Positions 45,301-60,295 of a DNA stretch of 64,000 bases are shown here, piece by piece (position 1 is the first letter of the stretch; every line of letters begins with the position of its first letter). The stretch is taken from positions 1,426,001 to 1,490,000 of the forward strand of contig NZ_CP011930.1 of NCBI RefSeq assembly GCF_001040945.1, given 5' to 3'. A model generated the notes under the pieces. That model saw nothing but the letters and a program-made list of their open reading frames with translations, was not told the origin of the DNA and ran no database searches. Position numbers and translations under genes: made by a program. This DNA is from Herbaspirillum seropedicae. Lineage in GTDB: Bacteria > Pseudomonadota > Gammaproteobacteria > Burkholderiales > Burkholderiaceae_D.

Positions 45301-47337
45301 TACCAGAGTGTGGTGACGCAGGCGGGAATCAAGGCGGGTGATGGTGGCTTCCGCCTGGTGGTCGCTGGCAATACCGATCTGAAGGGGGCGGTCATCTCCA
45401 GTACCGCCAAGGCGATCGAAGACGGCAAGAATTTCTTGCAGACTGGTACGCTGACCTACAGCGATATCAGCAACCACGATGCCTACGAAGCCAGCGGCTA
45501 TTCCGTCAGCGGTTCGATGAGCAGCCAGTTGGGTGACCAGAGCAAAGCCAAGACAGAAGCCGACAAGGCAGCAGCCAATTCACGTACCGGCCCTGGCGGC
45601 AGCCCAGGGTACTCCGATACCGGCGGCAGCCAGTCCAGCGTGACGCGCTCAGGAATCAGCGGCGGTACCGTCATCATCACCGATGAACAAGGTCAGAAAG
45701 CCGCCACCGGTCAGAGCGCCGAACAGATCCTGGCGTCGCTCAATCGCGATGTCGATTCCAGCAAGGATTCCAGTGGAGCCTTGAGCAAGGCATGGGATGG
45801 TGAGGCCTTGCGTCAGCAGGTGGAAGCGGAAGCGCAGATCCGGCAGGCATTTGGTCAGACCGTTGCCAAGTCCATTGGCGACTATGCCGATACCAAGGAA
45901 AGAGACCTCAAGAACGCCGCCAAGCAGGCCGAGCAGGATGGCGATGCGGAGCAGGCAGCGAAACTGCGCGCAGAAGCTGCCCGTTGGGGGGAGGACGGCA
46001 CCGCTCGAGCTGCCGTGCACGCTGCCGCCGGCGCGCTCTCCGGAGGACTGGCCGGGGCCGCCAGCGCGGCTGCGGTCAGCAAGCTCATGCCCTCGCTGGC
46101 GGAGCAGATCAAGAAGATGGGCTTGCCCTCTGAACTGGAGGGCGTGGTCGCCGCTGCCGCAGCAAGCGGGTTGGGAGCGATCATTGGCGGAAGCGCCGGC
46201 GCCGCCACTGCGGTCACCGTCGATTTGAACAACCGCCAGTTGCATCAATCCGAGCGTGCTCTGCTGGCCAAGCTGGCCAAGGAAAAAGCTGCGGCTGTCT
46301 GCGGCCAGGATGCTGACTGCACGACGCGGCAAACCTTGTTCTGGTCGGACATGCTGGAGCGGGTGGCCAATGGCAAGGTCGATAATGTCGAGGCCGCCAA
46401 GAACATGGACTATCTCGCCAAGCTGGCCAATGCATCGGCGGCGCCGGACAGCGAGGGGGCACGCGGTGGGCTGGAAGCCTACCTCAATGCCTGGCGCAGC
46501 GCCGAGGCATTGTTGCAGCCTTATGTCGGAACACCCATCGTGACCAACGGAGTTCCCGCCTTTGGCGACGGGTCGGCACAGACCTATTTCTCTGCAACCG
46601 AAGCGCAGCGTAGCGACCGTTTCTTGAATACCTTCCTGGGCAGTTTCCCTGACCCGCTCGCGGCGGGGCGTCCAGAACGCGACGCTGATCGCGTGGACCG
46701 CTTCCTGGCGCAGAACGGAAGTGCGCTGAAAGATTACTTCTTTGAAGAGAACCTCCTTGGAGGAAAACTTGCTGCCAAGACCCTGGGGCTGTTGGGTCGT
46801 TTGCTGGGCAACGAGACTGACCTGTTCTTTGCGGGGACGGTCAGTCCCTCGGCCAAAGGTTACATTGGTGTCGGCAAGGTGACGATGGAAGGTTATTCGG
46901 TGAAACTGAGCAATGCTGAAATGTCGCTGCTTCAGCAAATCGATAAGCTGGAAACCACCAAGGCACAAGGCGAATTGAGAGAGATGGTTTCGGATTTTTA
47001 TTTTTCTCGGAATGGATACAAGAGTTTTGATGGAAAATGCGGAGTGAATTGTTTCGATGGCGTCTATCTCAAGGGCAACACCGTATTTATTAACGAGGTC
47101 AAGCCTTTGTCCAACAACGGTTCGATCTCCCTTAACGGAGATACGCCAGGACTACCGACACAGATGACCGATGCCTGGATCAGGAATGCAGCGGATCGCC
47201 TTGAACAGACCGGAAGAAGCGACGCGATTAAGACAGCGGAAATGATCCGGAGCGCATTGAGTGACGGCAGACTGGTTAAGGTCGTGACTGCGGTCGATTC
47301 CAAGAGCATCACACTTATCAAGCTTGCGAGAGACTAG
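39361..47337 (+). CDS. CdiA/FhaB-like contact-dependent exoprotein with nuclease-like C-terminal tip
   Basis: 2658 residues, the TpsA partner of the upstream transporter. After a signal-like N-terminus comes the TPS secretion domain with the diagnostic NPNGISCDGCGFINTSRGVLTTG (N149 onward). FHA-1-type beta-helical repeats run to about residue 740. A Tyr/Trp-rich non-repetitive block spans about 741-910. The CdiA-type KRLGDGFYEQKLINDQIAQLTG block is near 1080, followed by FHA-2/hemagglutinin repeats to about 2050. A helical Ala-rich pretoxin region follows (LNNRQLHQSERALLAKLAKEKA near 2290). The tip, from about residue 2527, differs in composition and looks like a toxin. No canonical VENN motif is seen. 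The immunity candidate abuts its stop codon. Confidence 0.93.
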   Translation: MSKHMIDTIHFQSGRHGVLRRAMAALMIMLCVVPPGYPQIVADPNAGAGKRPVVDNTANGRPLVQIATPSAAGVSHNQYSQFNVGPNGAILNNARDVVLTQQGGYVGANPNLQGGAARVILNEVTSTSPSQLRGYTEVAGQRAEVIIANPNGISCDGCGFINTSRGVLTTGVPLFGGNGSLEAFRVSRGAIQIGSGGLNGANTDQLDLIARSVQVNGELWGNRLNLVTGANRVNYGDLGLSVIAGEGNAPTIGVDVARMGGMYAQKIMLVGTENGVGVRSLGTLAAQAGSFTLSSQGQIALSGKTSASDDIVLKSAVGTSNDGVLYAGRNAQLQGGVIENAGTLSAQGNLDITAAQLRSTGTLAAGVDQAGNVAQAGNLTVTASGDVLATGVNRAGADLQLVGGKIDLSHSSSSAGRKLGAQASDALTLGGATVETLAGDLELGGATITLDGAKLTSSADARINAVAGLSNRGGEITSAGAMNVTAASVDNSAGMISAATGGAGVLSLRSAGSISNGQGRIAAGAALNLAAASIQGQGSVIANGDATLSLQSLNNEAGSLIQSNRDLRITTSGATGNQGALKAIGALNLTASQIDNAAGGDISAAATTLQALNGDINNAGKIGGNTIATTSNALNNQGSMIGGDVTINADRLNNSGAAAAIAATNSVQAFVRSALTNQDNALIYSLGKLVIAADATQSAAGDYLHRTGTLTNSSATIEAGGDLAVSADTIVNKRSTLVIARDIFDGTESWQKYNYYWRSWGSGMSGPDSAGLMAAVTRTLPFNDASAFGSRYGSILQLDLSSNRALVQFQGSNQLWVSYKAIKQNADGSYDMTFYEGKNCDGSTLCPYQQMVWREYTGSRVQDQFDPSRYTSPAELKGIGTNGESAYDFRERSYNGSNYHDAITAMSDAAKLNASGRITINTAALTNDASDIIAGGALTINGANGSAASGGVVNNIGYSINRTAIGTAVDHYDRHVGHHTYTTLNLTEVTALQTIDANIQSNQAVSISAQNLNNTTVGAATVPTRAGGVGHANITLPAGGLFTVRPEPGQRYLVETDRRFTDYKTFLGSDYMLGRLTMDPSMTQKRLGDGFYEQKLINDQIAQLTGKKFLDGYTNAEAQYKALMDSGVASAASFKLTPGIALSADQMAALTSDIVWMVDTEVTLADGSRQHALVPTVYLAHGGSATLQASGALIGGRDVTLAADTVNNSGIVRAEDKLAVAARDINNTGGELRGDKVDVLATETLNIGTDFQNYGRQGSVTGRQVSLAANDINIIGAKIKADDTLKLAAQNNLTIAAATAQHDVKLTWSGAGEREENHGMMRNGGVTAQLQQALGSTIEAGGDASFAAGRNIAVRGSSIDVKGNAALLAGGSVEVSAVKTATDSVVTGRSDRYDLNVVGHTENLTTSQIAAGKGLSIVASGQNGSGDITLAASRLSSKEGEVTLNAAGDISIGAMQKNNDNRIDERGGKAWMKTHDSSSVAAGSLIEGEKGVNLIATGRSDAKVSVAGSDIYSNGTIAIQAKGDVTVAETRSSSDEWQQAHSESRGFLSRSSSDRTDQVRQDMANGSTLSGNKVVIDAGRNIAVRGSEVVSTELTSLRAANDVSITTTQNFTEQSHYKEDRKSGLMGAGFGISIGSQGQMANGNGSSVTNNASTVGSVNGNVNIIAGNAFRQIGSQVVAPQGDINILAKSVDIGAAYDASVYTQENKFKQSGLTLAINSPVISVLQTGQQLIQAGQKTPDKRMQALAAATLAKNAYDAGAALIDKPTDTSGVKITLSLGSSQSSNKVTQASSQAVGSTVAAGGAVNIVASGGPRSDINVVGSAISAGGDVSLVADHEINLLAAQSAYSQHGNNNSSGASIGIGFAMGGSQNGFTLELGANRARGNLDGDDLVNKASTISAGNQASLISGGDTNVRGSTVSAKTVAAAIGGDLNIESLQDKSTYGSKQSSAGVGLSLCIPPFCYGASSVSGSLSGSKAKGDYQSVVTQAGIKAGDGGFRLVVAGNTDLKGAVISSTAKAIEDGKNFLQTGTLTYSDISNHDAYEASGYSVSGSMSSQLGDQSKAKTEADKAAANSRTGPGGSPGYSDTGGSQSSVTRSGISGGTVIITDEQGQKAATGQSAEQILASLNRDVDSSKDSSGALSKAWDGEALRQQVEAEAQIRQAFGQTVAKSIGDYADTKERDLKNAAKQAEQDGDAEQAAKLRAEAARWGEDGTARAAVHAAAGALSGGLAGAASAAAVSKLMPSLAEQIKKMGLPSELEGVVAAAAASGLGAIIGGSAGAATAVTVDLNNRQLHQSERALLAKLAKEKAAAVCGQDADCTTRQTLFWSDMLERVANGKVDNVEAAKNMDYLAKLANASAAPDSEGARGGLEAYLNAWRSAEALLQPYVGTPIVTNGVPAFGDGSAQTYFSATEAQRSDRFLNTFLGSFPDPLAAGRPERDADRVDRFLAQNGSALKDYFFEENLLGGKLAAKTLGLLGRLLGNETDLFFAGTVSPSAKGYIGVGKVTMEGYSVKLSNAEMSLLQQIDKLETTKAQGELREMVSDFYFSRNGYKSFDGKCGVNCFDGVYLKGNTVFINEVKPLSNNGSISLNGDTPGLPTQMTDAWIRNAADRLEQTGRSDAIKTAEMIRSALSDGRLVKVVTAVDSKSITLIKLARD
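46939..47337 (+). other. Candidate toxin module of the exoprotein (PD-(D/E)XK-like nuclease)
   Basis: The last 133 residues of the exoprotein are encoded by visibly A/T-richer DNA (from about 46940) than the repeats before them. They contain CFDGVYLKGNTVFINEVKP, giving D2566-x12-E2579-x-K2581, the D..ExK layout of restriction-endonuclease-fold toxins, then LPTQMTDAWIRNAADRL, a block common in such CdiA tips (QMS-W-I-RL). Nuclease activity is inferred from these motifs. Confidence 0.65.
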
Positions 47338-48147
47338 ATGAACGGCAACCTTCAGGATTCCATCACCACACTCCTTCGGATTCGCGAGCGCGAGCTGCCA
47401 GATGTGCTTGAGCGGATTTATTTCCGCAGAAACTCCAGTAATTTGAACGCCGTGATGTTGGCGGTGGAGTCCCACGCTCTGGCCATGGGCATGTATGGCT
47501 TTTATGTCGAAGGTGACACCGCCAAGCTCAAGCAGTGGTTTCACGTCGCCGCGAGAGTGCGTCTGGCGGATCCCCCACGCGATCTTGGCCCGGGCTCGTG
47601 GCTGTTACATGCCCTGCTGAGCGACAACGAAGCCACTATCCAATTGGCAGCCAAGGCCAGTAGCGCCGAGTTACGCAAGAGTGGCGCCAATCCGCTTTAT
47701 TCTGCTTTTCACCACCGGATGATCCAGTGGGCCATCCTGGGCGAGGACGAGCTGCTGCGGCAAAGCATTGCCAAGCTGGCCAAGAATGGGGAAAAGAAGT
47801 ATCGCAAACCGGCAGCAGCGGGAACGGATTTCTATTCGCTGCTGCTCGCCCGAGATCATGACGGTCTGACCCGTCTGATCCATGAAAGCGCGAAGATCAA
47901 CAGCGCCGATCCCCTGTTCGAAGACGCCATGTCACACGTGGCCGTATTGCAGACCAAGCTGTGCTGGCGGCGTGGCATCGAAGTCCAGATCGATAGCCCG
48001 ATGGTGCCGATGGAGCTGATGCCGGTGCGGCCCTTGAGCCACTACGATGATGTCTATGAGTTCATCCGTCCAGGCTGGGTGCCGCCGCGCCAGGGACTCT
48101 TGGGCCGCATAGAGCGCTTGTTCCGCAAGACGACCATCCCGCGCTGA
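47338..48147 (+). CDS. Candidate immunity protein for the exoprotein toxin (Imm49-like)
   Basis: 269 residues whose ATG directly follows the toxin gene's TAG, so the two are co-translated. The protein is all-helical by inspection, with repeat-like helical pairs such as AMGMYGFYVEGDTAKLKQWFHVAARVRL and LLARDHDGLTRLIHES. This pattern resembles the Imm49 family of immunity proteins, though the match is from memory and moderate. Lower GC at its 5' end continues from the toxin tip. Position, coupling and solubility (no signal peptide) fit a cytoplasmic inhibitor of the toxin. Confidence 0.68.
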   Translation: MNGNLQDSITTLLRIRERELPDVLERIYFRRNSSNLNAVMLAVESHALAMGMYGFYVEGDTAKLKQWFHVAARVRLADPPRDLGPGSWLLHALLSDNEATIQLAAKASSAELRKSGANPLYSAFHHRMIQWAILGEDELLRQSIAKLAKNGEKKYRKPAAAGTDFYSLLLARDHDGLTRLIHESAKINSADPLFEDAMSHVAVLQTKLCWRRGIEVQIDSPMVPMELMPVRPLSHYDDVYEFIRPGWVPPRQGLLGRIERLFRKTTIPR

Positions 48148-48212: not shown

Positions 48213-49868
48213 GTGCCCTCCGCAAGACCCTTCTACTATCTGGACAATTTCCAGCAAGTCCTGGACTGGCTGGCCCAGCGCTGCGCCGACCTGCTCGATC
48301 TGCGCGAGCGGCAGTTCATCGTCGCTTTCCCCGGCCTGCCGTTGCCCTCGCGGGCGCTGTTCGTGCGCATGATGATGCGCAAGGGCGAGCTCTTCCGTAG
48401 CGGTCGGCTGGACTATCCCGAGATCGGCTGCCCGCTTGAGGCCGCCAAGGGTCTGCCCGAGGACTGGGTCGAACGCGATGCCGCGTTGACGCTGGAACAG
48501 TTCTTCAGCCTTTCCACCAAGCCGGAACTTGTGCGCGCCTTCGCGCTGACCGGCGCGCAGCGCGCCGCCCGCAAGACCGACCTGCTGGCGCAACTGGCGG
48601 CCGATCCGGCCTGGGACCAAGCGCGTGTGCTGCGCCAGTGGTGCAGGCAAGGCGACGAACTTGCGTTGCGCCTGCGCGTGCAGGACCTGTGCGACCGCCT
48701 GCGCCTGATGTTCTTCGGCAACCTGCGCCAGGACTGGAGCGAGTTCGTGCTGGCCGACCTGGGCCGGTTCCGCTATGAGCGGGTGGCCTTGTCGCCAGAG
48801 GCGCGCGGTTTTCGTCAGCGCAGCGACGTCGATCACTACCTGCGCCTGCATGCCTGCAGCGAAGCGCTGGAGGCTGGCGAGGACGCTGCCGATGTCATGG
48901 CCGCGTTGACCGTGGCCGCGCCTGCCGAGGGCCACGACAACCCCTGGCTGCAAAGCCGCTACGAGCGCCTGCTGTTCAAACTGGGCCAGCATCTGGAAAA
49001 GCAGGGCCACTGGCCGCAAGCGCATGCCGTCTATGCCCGCTGCCCTTATCCGGGCGCGCGTGGCCGGGCCATGCGCGTGCTGGAAAAGCAGGGTCGTTAT
49101 GCCCAGGCCTACGCCCTGTTCCAGGCCGCGCAAGCCGCACCGGAAAGCGAAGCCGAGCGCCAGCACCTGCAACGTATCGGACCGCGCCTGACGCGCCAGC
49201 TAGGCTATCCACCGATGGTGCGCGTGCGCACCTTGCCGCCGCAGCGGCTGGACCTGGTCCTGGCCATGCAGGCCGGGCAGGGCGTGGAGGCGGCGGTGCG
49301 CGCGCATCTGCAGGCGCCGGATGCACCGGTGTTCTATGTCGAGAATACGCTGGCGACGGCGCTGTTCGGACTGCTGTGCTGGGACGCCATCTTTGCGGCG
49401 ATTCCGGGTGCGTTTTTCCATCCCTTCCAGCGTGAGCCCGCCGATCTGCACAGCGCGGATTTCCATGCGCGTCGGCGCGAGGCATTTGCGCATTGCCTGG
49501 CGCGGCTGGACCAGGAGCGCCATCGCGAGGCCATCCTTGCTGCCTACGAGGACAAGCAAGGGGTGCTGTCGCCTTTCGTCAGCTGGGGCGCGATCAGTCG
49601 TGGATTGCTGGTGCTGGCGCTGGACTGCATCCCGGCCTGGCATTTGAAGCACTGGTGCCTGCGCATCCTGGAGGATGTGCGCGAGAACCGCAGCGGCTTC
49701 CCCGATCTGATCCAGTTCTGGCCGCAGCAGCGGCGCTACCGCATGATCGAAGTCAAGGGTCCGGGTGACCGCCTGCAGGACAACCAGCAGCGCTGGCTGG
49801 CCTTTTGCGCGCAACACCAGATGCCGGTGGCGGTGTGCTACCTGCAATGGCAGCAGCAGGTCGCATGA
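48213..49868 (+). CDS. VRR-NUC domain nuclease (FAN1-like)
   Basis: 551 residues starting at GTG 48213. Helical N-terminus with a SAP-like start, TPR-like helical repeats around residues 250-320 (QLEKQG-type repeats HLEKQGHWPQAHAVY, VLEKQGRYAQAYALF), then the C-terminal VRR-NUC domain: FHPFQREPADLHSADFHARR, GFPDLIQF (D498) and MIEVKGPGDRLQDNQQRWL (E513, K515). FAN1-type enzymes cut branched DNA and unhook interstrand crosslinks. The gene overlaps the helicase by four bases and is headed by a LexA box. Confidence 0.92.
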   Translation: MPSARPFYYLDNFQQVLDWLAQRCADLLDLRERQFIVAFPGLPLPSRALFVRMMMRKGELFRSGRLDYPEIGCPLEAAKGLPEDWVERDAALTLEQFFSLSTKPELVRAFALTGAQRAARKTDLLAQLAADPAWDQARVLRQWCRQGDELALRLRVQDLCDRLRLMFFGNLRQDWSEFVLADLGRFRYERVALSPEARGFRQRSDVDHYLRLHACSEALEAGEDAADVMAALTVAAPAEGHDNPWLQSRYERLLFKLGQHLEKQGHWPQAHAVYARCPYPGARGRAMRVLEKQGRYAQAYALFQAAQAAPESEAERQHLQRIGPRLTRQLGYPPMVRVRTLPPQRLDLVLAMQAGQGVEAAVRAHLQAPDAPVFYVENTLATALFGLLCWDAIFAAIPGAFFHPFQREPADLHSADFHARRREAFAHCLARLDQERHREAILAAYEDKQGVLSPFVSWGAISRGLLVLALDCIPAWHLKHWCLRILEDVRENRSGFPDLIQFWPQQRRYRMIEVKGPGDRLQDNQQRWLAFCAQHQMPVAVCYLQWQQQVA

Positions 49869-52156
49869 GCAGCGCACCTCTCGCACCGGCCCGGCGCTAC
49901 ACGGTCTCTGTGCGCGCCCTCTGTGAATTCACCGCCAAGGCGGGCGATCTGGACCTGCGCTTCACGCCCACGCCGACGGCGCGCCAGGGCATGGAGGGTC
50001 ACGCCATCGTGGCGAGCCGTCGTGGCGAGCACTACCAGAGCGAGCTGGCGCTGGCCATCGATCATGGCGCGCTGCACGTACGCGGCCGCGCCGATGGCTA
50101 CGATGCAGACCGCCAGTTGCTGGAAGAGGTCAAGACCTATCGCGGGCAACTGGCCAGCATTCCCGACAATCATCGCCATCTGCACTGGGCGCAACTGCGC
50201 GTCTATGGCCATCTGCTGTGCCAGGCGCAGGGGCTGGAGCGGGTGAACCTGGCGCTGGTCTATTTCGAGATTGGCAGCCAGCAGGAGACGCGGCTGGAAG
50301 AAAGTCGCAGCCGGGAAGAACTGGCCGAGCTGTTCGGGGCATTGTGCGAACGCTTCATCGGCTGGGCCGCCCAGGAGCTGGCGCATCGGCAGGCGCGCGA
50401 TGCGGCGCTGGAGCAGCTGCGTTTTCCGCATGGCGATTTCCGCCCCGGCCAGCGGCAACTGGCCGAGGCCGTCTTTCGCGCCCATGCGGGGCGGCGCAGC
50501 CTGCTGGCCCAGGCGCCGACCGGCATCGGCAAGACGCTGGGCACGCTCTTTCCCGCCCTCAAGGCCGCTCCACGCCAGCAACTGGACAAGGTCCTCTTCC
50601 TCGCCGCCAAGACGCCCGGCCGGCAACTGGCGCTGGATGCGGCCGCCACGTTGAAAGGGCAGGGCGTGCTGCCACTGCGGGTGCTGGAACTGAGCGCGCG
50701 CGAGAAGGCCTGCGAGCATCCCGAACGCCTGTGCCGGGGCGATTCCTGTCCCCTGGCCCAGGGTTTCTATGATCGCCTGGCGCAGGCGCGCGCGGCCTGC
50801 CTGGACGCTCCCTTGCTGGACCGCGCCAGCCTGCGCCAGATCGCCCTGGCGCACCAGGTCTGCCCCTATTACCTGGGCAGCGAGATGACGCGCTGGAGCG
50901 ATGTCATCGTCGGTGACTACAACTACTGGTTCGATGGCGGGGCGATGCTCTATGCCATGGCGCAGGCGCATGACTGGCGCGTGAGCGTGCTCGCTGACGA
51001 GGCCCACAACCTGGTGGCGCGCGCCCGCGGCATGTACAGCGCGCAGTTGAGCCGCGCCAGCCTGCGCGCGGCGCGCGCAGTGGCGCCGGCGGCGGTGGCC
51101 AAGCTGCTGGAGAAGATCGGTCGCGCCTGGAGCGCCATCGGCAAGCAGGCCTTGCTGCCCTACCAGGTGCTGGAGGCGATGCCGCCGCGTTTCATTGAAA
51201 CCCTGAGCGCAGCCAACAACGCCATCAGCGATCACCTGGCCCAGGTGGCCGTGCCGCTGGAGCCGCCGCTGCGCGACTTCCATCTCGAGGCCATGGCCTT
51301 CGTGCGCCTGGCCGAATCCTTCGGGCCGCATTCGCTGCTGGACCTCACGCGCCAGGATGAGCGCAATACCGTGCTGGCTGTCCGCAATGTGGTGCCGGCG
51401 CCTTTCCTGGGGCCGCGTTTCGCCCAGGCCCACGCCACCACGCTGTTCTCGGCCACGCTGGGCCCCTGGCATTACTTCGCCGACCTGCTGGGCATGCCCA
51501 AGGACACCGCCTGGATCGATGTCGAGTCGCCCTTCCACGCCAGCCAGCTGGAGGTGAGGGTGGCGCAGGACATCTCCACCCGCTGGCAGCGCCGCAGCGC
51601 ATCGATTGCGCCGATCACGGCGCTGATGGCGCGCCAGTTCCACCAGCGCCCGGGCAATTACCTGGCGTTCTTCTCCAGCTTCGACTACCTGCAGCAAGCG
51701 CTGGCGGCGTTCACCCGCGCGCATCCCGACATCCCCACCTGGCAGCAGTCGCGCGGCATGAGCGAGGCCGAGCGCGAGGCTTTCCTGGCGCGCTTTGTCG
51801 TGGGGGGCAGGGGGATAGGCTTTGCGGTGTTGGGCGGCTCGTTCGGCGAGGGAGTCGATCTGCCGGGCGAGCGGCTCATCGGCGCTTTTGTCGCCACGCT
51901 GGGCCTGCCGCAGGTCAATGAGGTCAATGAACAGCTGCGTCTGCGCATGCAGGCGCTCTTTGGCGCGGGCTACGACTACACCTATCTCTATCCCGGCCTG
52001 CAGAAGGTGGTGCAGGCCGCCGGACGGGTCATCCGCACCGAAAGCGACCAGGGCGTGGTGTGGCTCATCGATGAGCGCTTTGCCCAGCCGGAGGTGCAGG
52101 CGTTGTTGCCGTCCTGGTGGAAGCGGGACGATGTGCTGCAGGCGACAGGGCATTGA
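49865..52156 (+). CDS. PD-(D/E)XK nuclease fused to an XPD/DinG-type Fe-S helicase
   Basis: 763 residues; start ATG 49865 overlaps the VRR-NUC stop. Residues about 15-190 form a Cas4/RecB-like nuclease with D77 and E88-V-K90 (RADGY..LLEEVKTYRGQ). The helicase follows: Walker A APTGIGKT (K223), four cysteines suited to a 4Fe-4S cluster (C283, C290, C295, C333), the DEAH box at 378-381, and C-terminal motifs GGSFGEGVDLPGERL and QAAGRVIRTESDQGVV. Such fusions are 5'-3' unwinding enzymes with an attached nuclease. With the FAN1-like protein it forms a two-gene repair operon. Confidence 0.92.
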   Translation: MSSAPLAPARRYTVSVRALCEFTAKAGDLDLRFTPTPTARQGMEGHAIVASRRGEHYQSELALAIDHGALHVRGRADGYDADRQLLEEVKTYRGQLASIPDNHRHLHWAQLRVYGHLLCQAQGLERVNLALVYFEIGSQQETRLEESRSREELAELFGALCERFIGWAAQELAHRQARDAALEQLRFPHGDFRPGQRQLAEAVFRAHAGRRSLLAQAPTGIGKTLGTLFPALKAAPRQQLDKVLFLAAKTPGRQLALDAAATLKGQGVLPLRVLELSAREKACEHPERLCRGDSCPLAQGFYDRLAQARAACLDAPLLDRASLRQIALAHQVCPYYLGSEMTRWSDVIVGDYNYWFDGGAMLYAMAQAHDWRVSVLADEAHNLVARARGMYSAQLSRASLRAARAVAPAAVAKLLEKIGRAWSAIGKQALLPYQVLEAMPPRFIETLSAANNAISDHLAQVAVPLEPPLRDFHLEAMAFVRLAESFGPHSLLDLTRQDERNTVLAVRNVVPAPFLGPRFAQAHATTLFSATLGPWHYFADLLGMPKDTAWIDVESPFHASQLEVRVAQDISTRWQRRSASIAPITALMARQFHQRPGNYLAFFSSFDYLQQALAAFTRAHPDIPTWQQSRGMSEAEREAFLARFVVGGRGIGFAVLGGSFGEGVDLPGERLIGAFVATLGLPQVNEVNEQLRLRMQALFGAGYDYTYLYPGLQKVVQAAGRVIRTESDQGVVWLIDERFAQPEVQALLPSWWKRDDVLQATGH

Positions 52157-52368: not shown

Positions 52369-53706
52369 TTGACAGAAGAATTCGACCCCGCCCCCCTTGG
52401 CGACGAGCATGAATCCGGCTCCTTCGAGAGCTATTTCCGCGACCCCTCGCAGGCCACGGAAGCGCCGCTGGCCTGGAGCCTGGGCCAGCGGCTGGACGTG
52501 CTGGATGCGCTGCGCGGGCTGGTCTCCGGCGGCCAGGCAGCGGCGCGCCTGCGCATCTGGGTGTTCCTGGAGCTGGCGGCCCTGCCGCAAGGCCGCCTGC
52601 AGCGTGAAGACCTGAACCAGCTGTTCTATGCCCTCAAGCCCGAGGCCATGGAAGCCGCCCTCAAACGCCTGCGCGACCTGGGCCTTCTGGTCTGGAACGC
52701 CACCGACCAGGATTACCAGCTCCCGCCCATCGCCCAGCAGGTGCAAGCCTTGCTGGCCCCGTTGACGCGCGCCGTGGGCGAGGATGACGAGATGGCCGCG
52801 CTGCTGTCCCAGGTTGCCGGCGCGCAGGCGCTGGGCCTGTCCGACGCCAGCCAGATCCGTCACCTGCACGCCCAGCTGGCGCGCCTGCACGACCAGTTCG
52901 CCGACGCCATCGAAAGCGGCTCGGAAGCCCTGCTGCGGCAGGCCCAGCCGCGCTTCGAACGCGCCCTCAAGCTGGTCAACAGGGCCGGCGAAGCCCTCAC
53001 CGCCCTGATCCGCAGCGAACACGCCGATGCCCGCCTGGAGCGCGAAGCCCGCGCCCTGGGCAATGGCCAGGCGCGCCTGCTGACCATGGCCAGCCAGTTC
53101 ACCCGCGCCCTGCAACAGGCCGACCGCCAGCGCGTCACCCTGGGCAGCACCGGCGTGACCAGTTCGGACGTGCGGCGCTGGCTGCAACTGCATCCCGACC
53201 TGTCGTCCCTGATGGGCGAGGCCTTGTCCATCGGTGTGAAACCCGTCTTCGTCAGCGGCCACGAATTGCTGGATGTGGCCGAGGGCGAGTTCGAACGCGA
53301 CCGCCCCGACACCCAGCGCTCGCAAGGCCTGCCGCCGCCGGCCCAGGCGGTGGAGGGCAAGATCGAAGCCCTGCGCATGCCCGCCGAACTGGGCGAACTG
53401 ATCGAGCAACTGGGCCGCCTGGGCGCCTTGCCCAGCGCTGAGGATGCGGCGGAGCTGCAACCACAGCCACTGTCCTCGGTGGTGCTGGGCGGCAGTTTTG
53501 GCAAGGCCGCCTATCGGCTGCAACTGCTGCCGCTCTTGGGCGATCGCCAGGCCCAGACCCTGCAGGGCCAGACCGGCGACCTGGCGCGCCTGCCCTGGCA
53601 AGCCGGCTTCCTGCCGCGCGTAGAAAAAACCGATGACCCCGATGTGGCCGCCATGAGCGCCGGAGCCATCCATCCAGATCCATCCCGGGAAAGACCGAAT
53701 GAGTGA
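52369..53706 (+). CDS. MukF/MksF/JetA-like kleisin candidate of an SMC complex
   Basis: 445 residues from a TTG start at 52369 with no strong ribosome-binding site. The N-terminal part (about 40-130) looks like a winged helix (LDVLDALRGLVSG..LNQLFYALKPEAMEAALKRLRDLGLLVWN), as in MukF-type kleisins. The middle is a long helical region rich in Arg/Glu/Leu (about 160-260), and the C-terminal 120 residues are Pro-rich then beta-strand-like. The assignment rests mainly on operon position before MukE-like and SMC-like genes; sequence similarity alone is weak. It overlaps the next gene by eight bases. Confidence 0.7.
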   Translation: MTEEFDPAPLGDEHESGSFESYFRDPSQATEAPLAWSLGQRLDVLDALRGLVSGGQAAARLRIWVFLELAALPQGRLQREDLNQLFYALKPEAMEAALKRLRDLGLLVWNATDQDYQLPPIAQQVQALLAPLTRAVGEDDEMAALLSQVAGAQALGLSDASQIRHLHAQLARLHDQFADAIESGSEALLRQAQPRFERALKLVNRAGEALTALIRSEHADARLEREARALGNGQARLLTMASQFTRALQQADRQRVTLGSTGVTSSDVRRWLQLHPDLSSLMGEALSIGVKPVFVSGHELLDVAEGEFERDRPDTQRSQGLPPPAQAVEGKIEALRMPAELGELIEQLGRLGALPSAEDAAELQPQPLSSVVLGGSFGKAAYRLQLLPLLGDRQAQTLQGQTGDLARLPWQAGFLPRVEKTDDPDVAAMSAGAIHPDPSRERPNE

Positions 53707-54451
53707 GACCCTAGACGAGGCAGGCCTGCTGGCCGCCGAACTGCTGGCGCGCCGCTGGCTGCCCCGCAAGCATCCCCGCGTGCGCCGCGCCCTGGTCGAC
53801 GCCGACCTCTGGCAAGCCCTGCAAGACCGCCTGACCCAGGTCGGCCTGCGCCTGGTGGACAACATCCACGCCGACCATATCAGCGTGGCCCTGGTGCGCC
53901 CGGCCGAGTACGCCGTCTTCGGCGAAGCCGGCATGAACGCCAACAACAACCTTGAACTGCCGCGCGATGCGATTTCGCTGCTGGTGGTGCTATGGTCGCT
54001 GATCGTGCTGCCCAAGCGCGAGCGCCAGTCGGCCCGCGCTGCCGGCGACGCCGGCGAACAGCAGGAAGAAATGTTCCAGACCGACAAGCCCATGCCCAGC
54101 GCCGCCGAGGTCAGTCCGGTGGTGTCGTACAAGTCGCTGCTGGCTGACTTTGGCGCGCAACTGGGCAAGAAGATGCGCATGGACGGCAATCTGCGCCGCC
54201 TGGAGGCGCACGGCTTCATCGTGCGGCGCGGCGATGACATCGCCGAAGGTCCCTTGCTGGACCTGCTGCTGGACTACGACGCCCTGGCCCCGCGCATCCT
54301 CGATGGCGCGCTGGGCGATGTGCTGGCCCGCGCCGGCGCCCGCGAGCCGGGCCCCGAGGCTGATCACGAGAGTGATCAGGACGACGCTGCCGCCACCGAC
54401 CCATCCGACCCATCCGAACCAGCCGAACCAGCCGCCGAGGGAGACGCCTGA
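53699..54451 (+). CDS. MukE/MksE/JetB-like subunit (DUF4194-like) candidate
   Basis: 250 residues. The two-winged-helix layout of MukE/JetB is suggested by LELPRDAISLLVVLWSLIVLP, a variable acidic insertion, VSYKSLLADFGAQLGKKMRMDGNLRRLEAHGFIVRRGDDIAEGP and the helical end LLDLLLDYDALAPRIL. The C-terminal 35 residues are an acidic Asp/Glu/Pro tail (DPSDPSEPAEPAAEGDA). It overlaps the kleisin-like gene by eight bases and shares one base with the SMC start, so all three are made together. Confidence 0.72.
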   Translation: MSETLDEAGLLAAELLARRWLPRKHPRVRRALVDADLWQALQDRLTQVGLRLVDNIHADHISVALVRPAEYAVFGEAGMNANNNLELPRDAISLLVVLWSLIVLPKRERQSARAAGDAGEQQEEMFQTDKPMPSAAEVSPVVSYKSLLADFGAQLGKKMRMDGNLRRLEAHGFIVRRGDDIAEGPLLDLLLDYDALAPRILDGALGDVLARAGAREPGPEADHESDQDDAAATDPSDPSEPAEPAAEGDA

Positions 54452-57264
54452 TGTTCCACCTGCAATCCCTGGAACTGCTGCAGTGGGACTACTGCCAGCG
54501 CCTGACCCTGCCGCTGGACGGCTCCATCATCACCATCGCCGGCCCCAACGGCTCGGGCAAGACCACGCTGCTGGACGCCATGCGCACCCTGCTGGGCCTG
54601 GAATGCTCGGGCGGACGCAGCTACAAGACCTACGCCCGCCACGCCAATGCCGACACCACCTGGCTGCGCGCCACCGTAGACAACCGTCCGCATGGCCGCC
54701 AGACTTCGACCCGGCCCTTCGCCCGCAACCTGCTCTATGCCGACCAGGTCACGCTGGCCTGTCGCATCGAGCGCAATGGCGGCGACTGGCAGCGGCGCTA
54801 TTGCATGAGCGATGGCGACGTCGCCATCGAAACCCTGGCGCAATTGCCCGAGAAGGATTGGCTGGGCCTGGACCATTGGCGCAAGCGCCTGGAGGGCGCT
54901 GGCCTGTCGCGTGCGATTGCCCGCGTGCTGGCGCTGGAACAGGGCCAGACCGACCGCCTGTGCGAATTCTCGCCCAAGGAATTGCTGCGGCTGGTGTTTG
55001 AAGTCTTCGGTGACCAGGAAGTGCTGGACCGCTACGAAGAAGCGCGCCGTCACCAGCGCGACCTGGCCGCCGAGGTCACGCTGGCCGAGCAGGAACTGGC
55101 CTACAGCGAAGCCCAACTGGCCCAGCTCGACAGCCGCGTCACCCTGTATCGCCAATACCAGGGCAAGCTGCGCGAGCGCGAAACCCTGGCCACTGAAGTG
55201 ATCCCGGTATTGCGCTGGCATGAAGAACGCCAGGGCACAGCCCACCGCCTGCGCGAATTGCATCGCCAGCGCCTGCATCACAACAGCCAGCGCCGCCAGC
55301 GCAGCAGCGACACGCTGCAATTGTCGGCGCTGCTGACCCAGCAGCAGGCCGCCCGCGAGAAGGTGGCGACGCTGGAGCGCGACAAGGCCGAGGCCCAGCA
55401 GGCCCAGCAAAAGGCCCGCGATGCCGAGAAGCCGGTGGAAGAACTGGTCAAGCAGGCCGACGAACTGCTGGCCCTGTCGGCAGTGGAGGGCGACGCTGCC
55501 CAACTGTTGGCGCGGGTGGAAGAACTGGAACAGAACAAGAGCGATCTGCATGACCGCTGGCGCGCCCTGGAGCAGCAACGCAAGGACGCCCAGGAGGCGC
55601 TCGAGCGCGTCTCCGGGCAACGCCAGGCGCCCAAGCCGGGCGACGTCCAGCAGTTCACCCGCAGCCTGCGCCAGGCCGGCATTGCGCACCACATCCTGGC
55701 CGACGTCATCGAGATCAGCGACGATCACTGGCGCGCTGCGGCCGAAGGCGTGCTGCGCGCATCCTGCTGGGTGGTGGTGCTGGAGGACCCCAAGGATGAA
55801 GCCGCCGCCATGGCCCTGGCCGAGCGCGAGCGCTATCGTCACTACGTCGTCGCTGACGCGGCCAGCGCACCGGACAAGCCCAATGCCGACAGCCTCCTGG
55901 CGGTATTGCGCTTCTCGGCCAAGGCGCCGTCCTGGCTGCTGCGCCAGCTGGCCCAGATCCGCCGCGTGGACGACACGGTCGAAGGGGCCAGCGTGGGCGG
56001 TGAATGGATCACCCCGCAAGCCTACTGGCGCGATGGCCGGGGCGGACGCAGCGTCTGGCGCGATCCGGGCGACTACCAGTTCGGCGCCGCCGCCATGGCT
56101 TCGCGCCAGGCCTCGATCCAGAAGCGCCTGGCCAGCCTGGACGAACAGCTCACCGACATCGTGCTCAAGCAAAGCGAAGTCAAGCGCCAGCTCGACGCCG
56201 CCAAGAAAGCCACCCAGGGCCACCTGGCCGCCGAAGCCCTGGCGCGCCGCAGTGAAGAATTCGAAGAGGCGCGCCGTCAGCTGCCCTCGCTGCGCCAGGC
56301 CCGCATGGCCGCCAGCGAACGCTGGTCGCAGCTGGACCTGCACCATGCCGCCGCCATCGAACAGCGCACCATCATCGATGGCAAGCACGCCGCCCTGGAG
56401 CGCCGCCTGCGCGAGAGCGAAGGCGACCTGGCCGGACAGGAACGCGAATGGCGTGTACGCCACGACGAGCAGCGCGCCCGCGCGCTGGCCTCGCGGGCGC
56501 AGAAGGCCGGCTTCCCGCAGCGCTGGATCAGTGGCGCATCCCTGCAATTGCTGTACGAAAAATACACGAATGCCAAGCAAGCCGAACTGCGCATGACCTC
56601 GGTGGAAAACGAACTGGAAAGCGGCCAGTGGGAAAAGGACGGCACCGTCGAAGACAAGCACCTGATCATGCAAGGCACCGTGGGCAACCAGCGCAATGAG
56701 CTCGATGCCCGCAAGATCAGCAATGCCCAGGCCGAGGAAGCCGTGGGTAATGCCCGTGAGCGCTACATCGATGTGCTGCGCGCCACCGTGCGGCGCTATC
56801 GCAAGAACATCATCGACCTGGGTGCGCTGGCTGGCGTGATCGTCAGCGCCGAGCTGCCGCACCTGGACAATGACGACGCCGTGCTGCGCCAGGCGGAGCT
56901 GAAGGTCAGCTTCAACTTCGATGGCAAGGGTGAGATTGGCTTGAACGACGGCGAGGCGTCGGGCGGGCAGCAGGTGATCAAGTCGCTGATCCTGCTGGTG
57001 GGTTTGTTGAAGGACGACGACATGCCCGGCGGTTTCGTCTTCATCGACGAACCCTTTGCCCACCTTGATGTACGCAACATCCAGCTGGTCGGCAACTTCC
57101 TCAAGTCGACCCGGGCGCAATACGTGTTGACCACGCCGATCACGCATAACGTCGAAGTCTTCGAGCCCGCCGATATCACCCTGGTGACCTCGAAGAAACC
57201 GCGCGAAGCCCGCTGGGCGCCTCCCATCGGGGTCTTGCAGCGGCGCCTGCGGCTGGACGCCTGA
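54451..57264 (+). CDS. SMC-like ATPase (MukB/MksB/JetC type)
   Basis: 937 residues. Walker A GPNGSGKTT at 31-39, a coiled coil at about 185-385, a compact hinge at about 401-500 (QFTRSLRQAGIAHHILADVIEI..CWVVVLED), a second coiled coil at about 545-735, then the ABC signature GEASGGQQVIKSL (S837) and Walker B GGFVFIDEPFAHLD (D866, E867). The arms are shorter than in MukB (about 1480 residues). The sequence is that of a condensin-type motor that forms a complex with the two preceding proteins. No JetD/MksG topoisomerase-like nuclease follows; the next gene is an opposing chemoreceptor. Confidence 0.9.
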   Translation: MFHLQSLELLQWDYCQRLTLPLDGSIITIAGPNGSGKTTLLDAMRTLLGLECSGGRSYKTYARHANADTTWLRATVDNRPHGRQTSTRPFARNLLYADQVTLACRIERNGGDWQRRYCMSDGDVAIETLAQLPEKDWLGLDHWRKRLEGAGLSRAIARVLALEQGQTDRLCEFSPKELLRLVFEVFGDQEVLDRYEEARRHQRDLAAEVTLAEQELAYSEAQLAQLDSRVTLYRQYQGKLRERETLATEVIPVLRWHEERQGTAHRLRELHRQRLHHNSQRRQRSSDTLQLSALLTQQQAAREKVATLERDKAEAQQAQQKARDAEKPVEELVKQADELLALSAVEGDAAQLLARVEELEQNKSDLHDRWRALEQQRKDAQEALERVSGQRQAPKPGDVQQFTRSLRQAGIAHHILADVIEISDDHWRAAAEGVLRASCWVVVLEDPKDEAAAMALAERERYRHYVVADAASAPDKPNADSLLAVLRFSAKAPSWLLRQLAQIRRVDDTVEGASVGGEWITPQAYWRDGRGGRSVWRDPGDYQFGAAAMASRQASIQKRLASLDEQLTDIVLKQSEVKRQLDAAKKATQGHLAAEALARRSEEFEEARRQLPSLRQARMAASERWSQLDLHHAAAIEQRTIIDGKHAALERRLRESEGDLAGQEREWRVRHDEQRARALASRAQKAGFPQRWISGASLQLLYEKYTNAKQAELRMTSVENELESGQWEKDGTVEDKHLIMQGTVGNQRNELDARKISNAQAEEAVGNARERYIDVLRATVRRYRKNIIDLGALAGVIVSAELPHLDNDDAVLRQAELKVSFNFDGKGEIGLNDGEASGGQQVIKSLILLVGLLKDDDMPGGFVFIDEPFAHLDVRNIQLVGNFLKSTRAQYVLTTPITHNVEVFEPADITLVTSKKPREARWAPPIGVLQRRLRLDA

Positions 57265-57280
57265 GGCGGCACAGGCCGCC
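57265..57280. terminator. Hairpin after the SMC gene
   Basis: GGCGGC-acag-GCCGCC begins at the base after the stop codon, in the 36-bp gap between convergent genes. The stem is perfect but no U-run follows. Confidence 0.45.
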
Positions 57281-57300
57281 CCGGCGTCCGTTGGGGCGGG

Positions 57301-59007
57301 CTAGGCGACCACCATCATTCCCATCGCAGTGGGCGTCTTGAAGGCGCCCACCAGGTCGGTGAGCTTGTGGGCTTGCATCTGCATCGATTCGGACGCCGCC
57401 GAGGCCTGTTCGACCAGGGCCGCATTCTGTTGCGTGACCTGGTCCATCTGGTTGATGGCCTGCTGGATCTGTTCGATGCCGCTGGCCTGTTCCTGGCTGG
57501 CGTTGCTGATGCCGGTGATGATCTCGGTGACCCGCTGCACGCTCTCCACCACTTCCCGCATGGTGCTGCCGGCTTCGTTGACCAGGGTGCTGCCGGCCTC
57601 CACCTTGCTGACCGAATTGTCGATGAGGGTCTTGATCTCCTTGGCGGCTGCGGCCGAGCGCTGCGCCAGGCTGCGCACTTCGGTGGCCACCACGGCGAAG
57701 CCGCGTCCCTGCTCGCCGGCGCGGGCCGCTTCCACGGCGGCGTTCAGGGCCAGGATGTTGGTCTGGAAGGCGATGCCATCGATCACGGCGATGATATCGA
57801 CGATGCGCTTGGACGATTCATTGATGGCGCCCATCGTATCGACCACACGGGCGACCACCTCGCCACCCCGGACCGCCACGCCCGATGCGGTATTGGCCAA
57901 CTCGCTGGCCAGGCGCGCGTTGCCGGCATTCTGCTTCACGGTGGAGGTCAGTTCTTCCATGGAGGAGGCGGTCTCTTCCAGGGAGCTGGCCTGCTGTTCC
58001 GTGCGGGACGACAGGTCCAGTGTGCCCGAGGCGATTTCATTGGCCGAGGTATTGATGTACTGGGCGCCGTTGCGCACGTCCAGCACGATGGTCTGCAGGC
58101 CGGACTGCATGATGGTCAGTGCTTCCAGCAATTCACCGGTCTCACCCTTGATCGCGGGATCGATCTGCGCGGTCAGGTCGCCATGGGCGACACGCCGGGC
58201 CACCGATGCCGCATGCGCCAGCGGATTGCGGATGGCGTGGTAGACCAGCATGAGCGTGCAGGCCAATACCACCAGTGCAATGGCGATGAGACTGTAGAAC
58301 AAGGTAGCCATGTGCGTTGCTTGCGCACGGGCGCTTTCGACCTGCTCTGTGGTGCGGGCGTCGAGCAGGGCGAAGAACTCATCGACCGGGCGCATGATCT
58401 TGGCCTTGTAGACGTGGTAGGCATGGTTATGCATCAGCTCGCGCGCCTGCGCCAGGTCGGGGTCGGCGCGCTTGGTGAAATTGCCCTGGGCGTCCGCGTA
58501 GAGGCCCTTGACCATGTTCATGGCGATGACCTCGGTCTTGACCAGCGCGTCCGAATTGTTTTTCGCTTCTTCCAGCTTGCCCATTTCGGCGGCCGTAAAG
58601 CCGGCAGCGCGCATGAGGTCGGTGAGCGCCACGTGCTGGTTCGAATCCGGCCGTGGCGCCTTGCCGTCGGCGGCCACGAAGTCCCAATAGATCCGTCCGT
58701 AATGTTCAGGGCGCGCCTTCTTGCCGTTGCGGATGTCGAGGATGGCTTCGTATTGCTGTTCATAGGACGGATCGCCAGTGACCACATAGGTGCGGGCCAG
58801 CCGGGTCAGATCGTCGGAGCTCTGGCGCAATTCGGTGGCCAGCAGGAAGGACGCATAGCGGCTTTCGTTGGCGGCGTTGAGCCTGGCGTCGTAGCGGTCC
58901 ACGGCCAGGGCGGCCAGAACGATCAGCGTCATCAGCACGGTGATCACTGCGGTGAGCATGATGAAGATTTGGCGGATGCTGAAGCGGGAGACTAGCGAGA
59001 TTTTCAT
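57301..59007 (-). CDS. Methyl-accepting chemotaxis protein
   Basis: 568 residues. Transmembrane segment 1 ([23 protein letters not shown]), a periplasmic helical sensor (about 35-225) with [38 protein letters not shown], a segment common in soil-bacterial receptors, transmembrane segment 2 ([21 protein letters not shown]), HAMP and signalling domain with [20 protein letters not shown]. The C-terminus ends [10 protein letters not shown] without a CheR tether. It is convergent with the SMC operon. The ligand is unknown. Confidence 0.95.
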
Positions 59008-59509
59008 GGCGGACCCCTATGTAAGATCAAGTCAATCGGGGCGGATCCTTTATCTCGCCCCGAATCGATACTGCTGAAGGCCGCATGGGCTTGACGGCGC
59101 CGTGCAACAGCTGCCACCGCCTGGCTCGTCAAAACGGCCGCTGTTCTGCCCTTGAGCTGGAACCGGGGCGCCGTCCGGGCTGGCCGCCTTCCGCGCCGCC
59201 CGTGTCTGCAACGAAGCACAAATTTCTATCAAAGAATCACAAATTCGTTATAATCAATTTAATAAACAAAATATGATTAAATTGATGGATTTAATTTACA
59301 TGCGGGCGAATCTTTTTTCAAGGAAATTATTTGTGTGGATTCGCACGCTGGGTTAGCTGCGACAGCGGGGAGCGCACATGCCGCAGCCTTGGACAGGCGG
59401 GGAGAAAGGGCAAAGAGAGAAGGGGAGAAGGGGAAGCAGATTACGGGAACAACAGAGGGAATGGGCGGCGTGGCCCGGCGCGGCGCTGAAGCAGCGCCGC
59501 GCAATCCGG
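59008..59509. other. Intergenic region between the third chemoreceptor and pcaD
   Basis: About 500 bp without a credible gene. 59220-59340 is strongly A/T-rich and includes a TATAAT (59249-59254) on the plus strand without a clear -35; the chemoreceptor promoter must lie here. 59380-59500 is purine-rich, with short GGGAGAAGGGG-type repeats and no open function. Confidence 0.55.
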
Positions 59510-60295
59510 TCAGGGCTGGCCGGTCAGGAACTGCACCACGGCCTGGGTAAAGGCGGCGGCTTGCTGCTGGTTGGAGATATGCGCGGCATCGAACTCCACA
59601 TACTGCGCTCCCGGAATGGTAGCGCGCATGAACTGTGCATCGGCCGGCGGTGTGGGCACATCGCCGCTGCCGGCAATGATCAGGGTGGGGGCGCGGATGC
59701 CGGCAATGGCCTCGCGCAGGTCATGGTCGCGCACGGCCGCACAGGCCGCGGCATAGCCTTCGGCGGGCGTGGCCAGCAACATCGCGGTCAGCGCTTGGAC
59801 CTGCTGGGGATGCGCCTGGGCATACTCCGGCGTGAGCCAGCGGGACACCACCGCGCCGGCAATGGCCCCCAGGCCCTCGCGGCGGACGGTCTCGATGCGG
59901 CTGTTCCAGGCTTCGGCCGTGCCGATCTTGGCGCCGGTGTTGCAGAGGATCAGTTTGTTGATGCGCTGCGGATGATGCACGGCCAGCCACATGAAGGTGC
60001 TGCCCCCCATGGACAGGCCGCAGAAATGCGCTTGGGCGATCCCGAGATGGTCCAGCAGGGCGATCACATCACTGCCCAGCTGGGCGATGCTGCACTCGCC
60101 CGGCGTGACCTCGGACTGGCCGTGACCGCGCGTGTCGTAGCGCAGCACGCGGAAGTGCTGCAGCCACTGCGGCATCTGCGGATCCCACATCGATAGCGAG
60201 GTCCCCAGCGAGTTCGACAGCACCAGCACCGGCAGCGAAGCATCGCCCTCCAGTTGATAGTGCAGCCGGATGGCGTTGACGTTGGCAAAAGGCAT
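59510..60295 (-). CDS. pcaD: 3-oxoadipate enol-lactonase
   Basis: 261-residue alpha/beta-hydrolase that opens 3-oxoadipate enol-lactone to 3-oxoadipate, the last step shared by the catechol and protocatechuate branches. The nucleophile elbow GLSMGGS (S95), RYDTRGHGQSEV, the acid in IIAGSGDVPTPP and the catalytic histidine in EFDAAHISNQQQ are in place. Start at ATG 60295; nine extra upstream residues are possible. It is 10 bp downstream of catC on the same strand. Confidence 0.93.
   Translation of the reverse strand: MPFANVNAIRLHYQLEGDASLPVLVLSNSLGTSLSMWDPQMPQWLQHFRVLRYDTRGHGQSEVTPGECSIAQLGSDVIALLDHLGIAQAHFCGLSMGGSTFMWLAVHHPQRINKLILCNTGAKIGTAEAWNSRIETVRREGLGAIAGAVVSRWLTPEYAQAHPQQVQALTAMLLATPAEGYAAACAAVRDHDLREAIAGIRAPTLIIAGSGDVPTPPADAQFMRATIPGAQYVEFDAAHISNQQQAAAFTQAVVQFLTGQP

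Follow-up and report, generated by a model that had tools for sequence, protein, structure and literature searches.

What does a DNA motor of the Wadjet or Mks kind do when no nuclease gene accompanies it? This question is raised by an operon of three genes, here named F, E and B, that occupies positions 52369-57264 of the 64,000-nucleotide stretch of Herbaspirillum seropedicae DNA that we analysed (contig NZ_CP011930.1, positions 1,426,001 to 1,490,000; hereafter the window, whose own numbering is used below). The genome consists of a single contig of 5.51 Mb, rated 100% complete, and its closest named relatives are Herbaspirillum species, the nearest of which have B proteins 87-93% identical. 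With moderate confidence, we favour the answer that the three proteins make up a motor of the Wadjet/Mks type whose nuclease has been lost and whose present role is probably that of a condensin without a nuclease.

The initial annotation, made from the letters of the DNA alone, had described three overlapping genes for a Muk/Mks/Wadjet-like condensin, and the open reading frames (ORFs) were confirmed as follows: F (52369..53706, +; 445 aa, with a TTG start), likely a kleisin of the MukF/JetA kind; E (53699..54451, +; 250 aa), a JetB/MukE-like KITE (tandem winged-helix) subunit; and B (54451..57264, +; 937 aa), a compact SMC ATPase matching SMC_N with 54.4 bits (cut-off 40). F and E overlap by 8 bases, E and B by 1 base. 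The motifs expected of an intact SMC protein were all located in B, namely Walker A (GPNGSGKTT, residues 31-39; 54541..54567, +), the ABC signature (SGGQQ, residues 837-841; 56959..56973, +) and Walker B (VFIDEP, residues 863-868; 57037..57054, +), and, P32 excepted, they are invariant across a 26-row alignment that includes the window. The TTG start of F is found at the exact expected position in 9 of 13 other Herbaspirillum-group loci; among those that do not match, one is cut there and one has a TTG one codon later. Of the 152 loci in which B gave a usable match, 150 keep the order F-E-B on a single strand, and the two others (L012 and L074) are cut upstream.

The kinship with Muk, Mks and Wadjet condensins was borne out by the predicted folds and by the profile of B. 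Among the matches listed, the nearest to the predicted fold of E was JetB of Wadjet, with MukE lower (Z 7.9), which makes E a KITE of the JetB type, and the first matches of F were MukBEF/MukEF entries, weak ones; fold support is thus good for E and weak for F. By hhalign, B matched the JetC profile with a probability of 99.2 (E 2.2e-19, score 170.9) over 556 columns that include the presumed hinge region, and more weakly the Pseudomonas MksB, on coil and head (score 91.7, probability 96.6%). The PADLOC model JetC1 also matched B (E 1.7e-21), mostly on coiled coil and level with mad3 of another system. On the other hand, neither F nor E is clearly recognised by Pfam, NCBIfam or PADLOC, in agreement with the suggestion of a new Mks-type branch: F had no PADLOC Jet match and E a marginal one, and E found nothing in NCBIfam up to E 1, though that library includes MksE (NF040858). 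Comparisons of E with MksE and of F with MksF by hhalign gave probabilities of 1.1 and 0.5%, and nothing useful came from comparing F, E and the nuclease described below with solved structures by sequence. B stayed under the cut-offs of the MukB N-terminal model (PF04310, 15.5 bits, cut-off 23) and of SMC_prok_B, the model used for Smc-ScpAB (TIGR02168, 59.6 bits, cut-off 567.35); membership by sequence in MukBEF or in the Pseudomonas-type MksBEF was rejected on the profile results.

The full form of the family would have four genes, F-E-B-D, in which D is a JetD-like Toprim nuclease. A JetD_C search across the order gave weak matches (26-28 bits) directly downstream of B in three genomes (G543, G600 and G627), and the D read from those loci is a complete JetD-like protein (DUF2399 39.9 bits; JetD_C 24 bits, cut-off 22). 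With an iterated profile, D was found directly 3' of B and on the same strand in 37 of the 152 loci, always in this position, and none of the 152 held a second D. When cut or unreadable rows are set aside, 147 informative loci are left, with D present in 36 and absent from 111; in the order sample it occurs in 11 of 58 readable genomes, from the 59 wide-flank loci (window included) of 64 genomes. PADLOC JetD1 matched all 22 D proteins scanned, with conserved Toprim positions, while of five further D proteins compared with DUF2399 of Pfam two passed the cut-off, one was below it and two had no match at E 0.01. On a B tree (FastTree, 149 rows, 147 of them with a D state) the state of D changes at least 17 times. 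Across 34 loci the identity of D follows that of B closely (r 0.88), a sign that the two have long descended together, with some exchange; the Robinson-Foulds distance between the D and B trees is 26. As a candidate replacement for D we considered a conserved 3' gene, and no single one recurs across the D-less groups in the listed clusters.

In Herbaspirillum itself, the slot 3' of B is variable (57265..59522). D starts here in the relatives that carry it, and the window holds an opposing chemoreceptor gene (57301-59007, -; MCPsignal 190.7 bits), reported as the next gene already in the initial annotation. From about 59521-59523 the 3' flank of the window is common to six relatives (L004, L005, L009, L021, L172 and L186); the same chromosomal slot is therefore filled by either D or the chemoreceptor. 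In a blastn comparison with 13 loci, nothing upstream of 52328 in the window was shared with any of them. Seven of the twelve window-type Herbaspirillum operons have D (L001, L002, L003, L005, L008, L009 and L172) and five lack it: the gene is missing from the window, L004, L007 and L021, and a 54-residue stub, with 61% identity to the L003 protein, is left in genome G529 (L186). The D proteins fall into two allele groups, L001, L002 and L003 on one side and L005, L009 and L172 on the other, that are only 49-51% identical beside B proteins that are 86-96% identical. Since D stands 3' of B in 36/147 relatives and in 7/12 window-type operons, its absence here looks like a lineage-specific loss; the description 'without a nuclease subunit' holds for this locus and fails for the kind of system. 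The search of the genome for a JetD/MksG homologue, proposed as a check, returned no match to JetD_C and, with the D profile, only a relic of 49 codons, while five D-bearing control genomes scored strongly; the idea of a nuclease recruited from elsewhere was thus not upheld. Across 19 D-less genomes the same search found, at E <=0.1, this relic and the G529 stub only. The relic, an N-terminus of D at 3.22 Mb (C1:3224770-3224916, -; L300:5771-5917), shares 57% identity with the D of L074 over 47 residues and has no F, E or B in the surrounding 12 kb; it may be what is left of another copy of the system, now vanished, or a fragment that has moved.

F, E and B are under purifying selection in the window and in the four D-less sets of relatives tested. 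The ratio of non-synonymous to synonymous change (omega), obtained by simple counting and not by codon models, was on the window branch 0.10-0.13 for B, 0.15-0.20 for F and 0.22-0.23 for E; these branch estimates exclude the F of L004 (a cut gene, with a negative sister branch) and L007 (saturated synonymous divergence). Median values were 0.08-0.29 in the four D-less sets, that is 0.21-0.29 in a Massilia-type group that keeps F-E-B in 15 rows (7/15 tested) and 0.08-0.21 in the other three, and 0.02-0.26 in two D-bearing sets. Moreover, the substitutions unique to the window, compared with those of seven near relatives, were 4 vs 1-3 in F, 1 vs 0-2 in E and 8 vs 2-7 in B, with no clear excess.

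F-E-B is a discrete family, mainly of Burkholderiales. Full-length or nearly full-length relatives of B were found in 64 of 399 genomes across the order (one matched to residue 878 only), in 7 of 397 across the phylum, where the next match had 54.5 bits, and in 82 of 155 in the family sample; the raw tallies (92, 192 and 84, respectively) include short P-loop or coil matches, which are excluded from these counts. In the genus, 16 of 34 genomes match B: 12 are window-type (at least 77% identity), and the other four, three full-length and one partial, have 45-49% identity. Matches in three plasmid records each covered less than 80% of B, and phage records gave no match to B. The loci compared here comprise the best 80 of 105 pattern matches to the window's own B and others from the order, family, genus and class samples, the family sample being fetched in part. 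In 33 relatives (L141, L144, L148 and 30 more) the operon stands just downstream of a gene which we take, from its sequence, to be obgE, and all of them lack D; in one of these groups, 19 of 22 rows have a long same-strand gene 3' of B that is not D. This arrangement is compatible with vertical inheritance of a housekeeping kind at that site, albeit as a single clade effect. An association between the obgE slot and the absence of D (D in 0/33 beside obgE vs 37/119 elsewhere; Fisher p 4e-5 on the 147 rows) is not claimed, because it is nearly all one clade effect: no more than one of the 12 supported independent pairs is informative.

How could such a motor work without its nuclease? F, E and B would form a kleisin-KITE-SMC complex of the Wadjet/MksBEF kind, which probably dimerises through the N-terminus of the kleisin, loads on DNA and extrudes loops with ATP. 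This expectation comes from published descriptions of Wadjet and MukBEF, in which kleisin-linked SMC dimers extrude DNA loops and, in Wadjet, JetD cuts small circles. An ancestor of the window would have had D and then lost it from the slot 3' of B; from then on circular DNA would no longer be cut, and the motor would only organise or compact DNA, acting as a nuclease-free condensin on the chromosome and perhaps still compacting plasmids without cutting them. The suggestion of a housekeeping condensin, made in the initial annotation, is consistent with the D-less clades.

Several observations weigh against this interpretation. The slot of the window itself showed no stub of D, and the loss of the gene here is therefore inferred from the relatives. 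The hhalign comparisons of F with JetA, E with JetB and D with JetD were not significant, and the fold of F gave no match at E < 0.001, with Z values in the range for which the tool warns about helical models. The patchy presence of window-type operons, in 12/34 Herbaspirillum genomes, is more like that of an accessory defence gene. The omega of F on the window branch is 2 to 4 times that of its D-bearing sisters (0.15-0.20 vs 0.05-0.07; approximate Fisher p 0.05 to 0.0003) and could hint at a relaxation of the kleisin, which is the MksG-binding subunit in Corynebacterium glutamicum according to the relevant passage of PMC10123090. We do not claim relaxed selection on F, which appears in the branch estimates only and not in L021, in L186 or in the unique substitutions. 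Finally, too little time may have passed since the loss in the window lineage for selection to be informative. The main rival, which we consider rather unlikely, builds on such points: the operon would be a defence system recently crippled by the loss of its nuclease and now decaying, with a motor too young to have rotted. The patchiness and the raised omega of F would agree with it, as would the stub in G529 and the different D states of close relatives such as L003 (present) and L021 (absent), separated by 0.038 changes per column on the B tree. However, the three frames and the motifs of B are intact, no clear excess of unique substitutions is seen, and whole D-less groups, such as the Massilia-type one, keep F-E-B at the omega values given above.

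We regard as improbable the reverse history, in which the ancestral operon had three genes, some of its descendants acquired D in repeated events and the window lineage never had it. D-less rows are the majority, the 33 operons beside obgE are among them, no stub of D was noted in the slot of the window, the D and B trees differ, and the unrooted B tree does not separate gain from loss; yet the correlation of D with B is what a long shared descent with a measure of exchange would give, D always occupies the same position, and the G529 stub testifies to loss within the genus. That the motor uses another nuclease in trans, for example the FAN1-like VRR-NUC protein encoded two genes upstream (48213-49868), seems very unlikely: in the window, the operon is directly preceded by this gene and that of a Rad3/DinG-type helicase, but neither has a homologue (E 1e-10) among the ORFs of the 80 best loci, as far as their flanks extend, and neither a JetD_C match nor an intact D turned up elsewhere in the genome. 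Hardly credible, in the end, is a repair ATPase operon of the SbcCD/RecF/RecN type. B does have weak SMC, AAA and Rad50 matches, which are common to such ATPases, but the predicted folds point to a KITE for E and, weakly, to a kleisin for F; the SbcCD and RecF families, named in the initial annotation as the outcome that would speak against it, were rejected with scores far under their cut-offs (SbcC_Walker_B 15.4 bits, cut-off 27; RecF 23.9 bits, cut-off 172).

Returning to the motor that lost its nuclease, we propose more tentatively that F-E-B is an uncatalogued Wadjet/Mks family in which the nuclease is a swappable and dispensable cassette whose place 3' of a conserved motor is fixed: beside motors that are 86-96% identical stands either one of two D allele groups, about 50% identical to each other, or a stub, or nothing. 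The whole path from an anti-plasmid nuclease to a nuclease-free chromosome condensin would then have been travelled many times over, and one genus would show part of it in progress. As nuclease-bearing, nuclease-swapped, stub-bearing and nuclease-free versions of nearly one motor coexist in one genus, the transition from defence to the organisation of chromosomes can be tested directly. The family is also a Wadjet-like one whose kleisin and KITE escape clear recognition by the PADLOC models searched.

Around the operon, a strong hairpin lies just past the stop codon of B (57276..57299, +; fold of 57255-57310, -33.0 kcal/mol), and no T-run follows it 3' in the sequence as read. On the upstream side, the FAN1-like VRR-NUC nuclease gene (48213-49868, +) overlaps the Rad3/DinG-type helicase gene (49805-52156, +), which directly precedes F. 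Further upstream, a protein of 2658 residues (39361-48147, +) with a TPS domain and haemagglutinin repeats is followed directly by an Imm49 immunity gene; the two look like a contact-dependent inhibition pair.

Compared with known systems, F-E-B shares with MukBEF the first structural matches of F and the similarity of E to MukE, and differs from it in the N-terminal model of MukB and in size, MukB being longer than the 937 aa of B. That B is much shorter than MukB, as remarked in the initial annotation, is nothing unusual in itself, the Pseudomonas-type reference MksB having 943 aa. With Wadjet (JetABCD; type I structures 8as8 of E. coli and 8dk1-3 of P. aeruginosa PA14) it has in common the kleisin-KITE-SMC order, the JetD-like gene in last place in four-gene relatives, the JetB-like fold of E and the JetC match of B. 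In contrast, the JetC chains and loci compared have 1096-1158 aa (head-only constructs excluded), the Jet matches in PADLOC are missing for F, marginal for E and mostly coiled coil for B, and the nuclease is optional across the family and absent from the genome of the window. The three-gene chromosomal condensin MksBEF of Pseudomonas is likewise a kleisin-KITE-SMC operon without a nuclease, with proteins of nearly equal size (452/233/943 aa in L251). Eight Pseudomonas-type reference loci (L251, L286-L292) have MksF, MksE and MksB together, with no same-strand ORF of at least 150 aa listed directly 3' of MksB. The sequences, however, are distant, and the Walker and signature motifs differ. D-bearing relatives share the four-part plan of MksBEFG of C. 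glutamicum and EptABCD of Mycobacterium smegmatis, as far as the published outlines of these systems describe it. Several distant MksBEF families exist according to the section of PMC7485682 dealing with them, and F-E-B may be one of these; no paper on it was found among open-licence papers, by search and by the titles listed. The three-gene MksBEF state is already known, and so is the idea of its origin through loss of JetD, suggested for P. aeruginosa MksBEF in the corresponding passage of PMC10586767; new, as far as our searches reached, are the F-E-B family in the form described above and the succession of nuclease losses and swaps inside a single genus.

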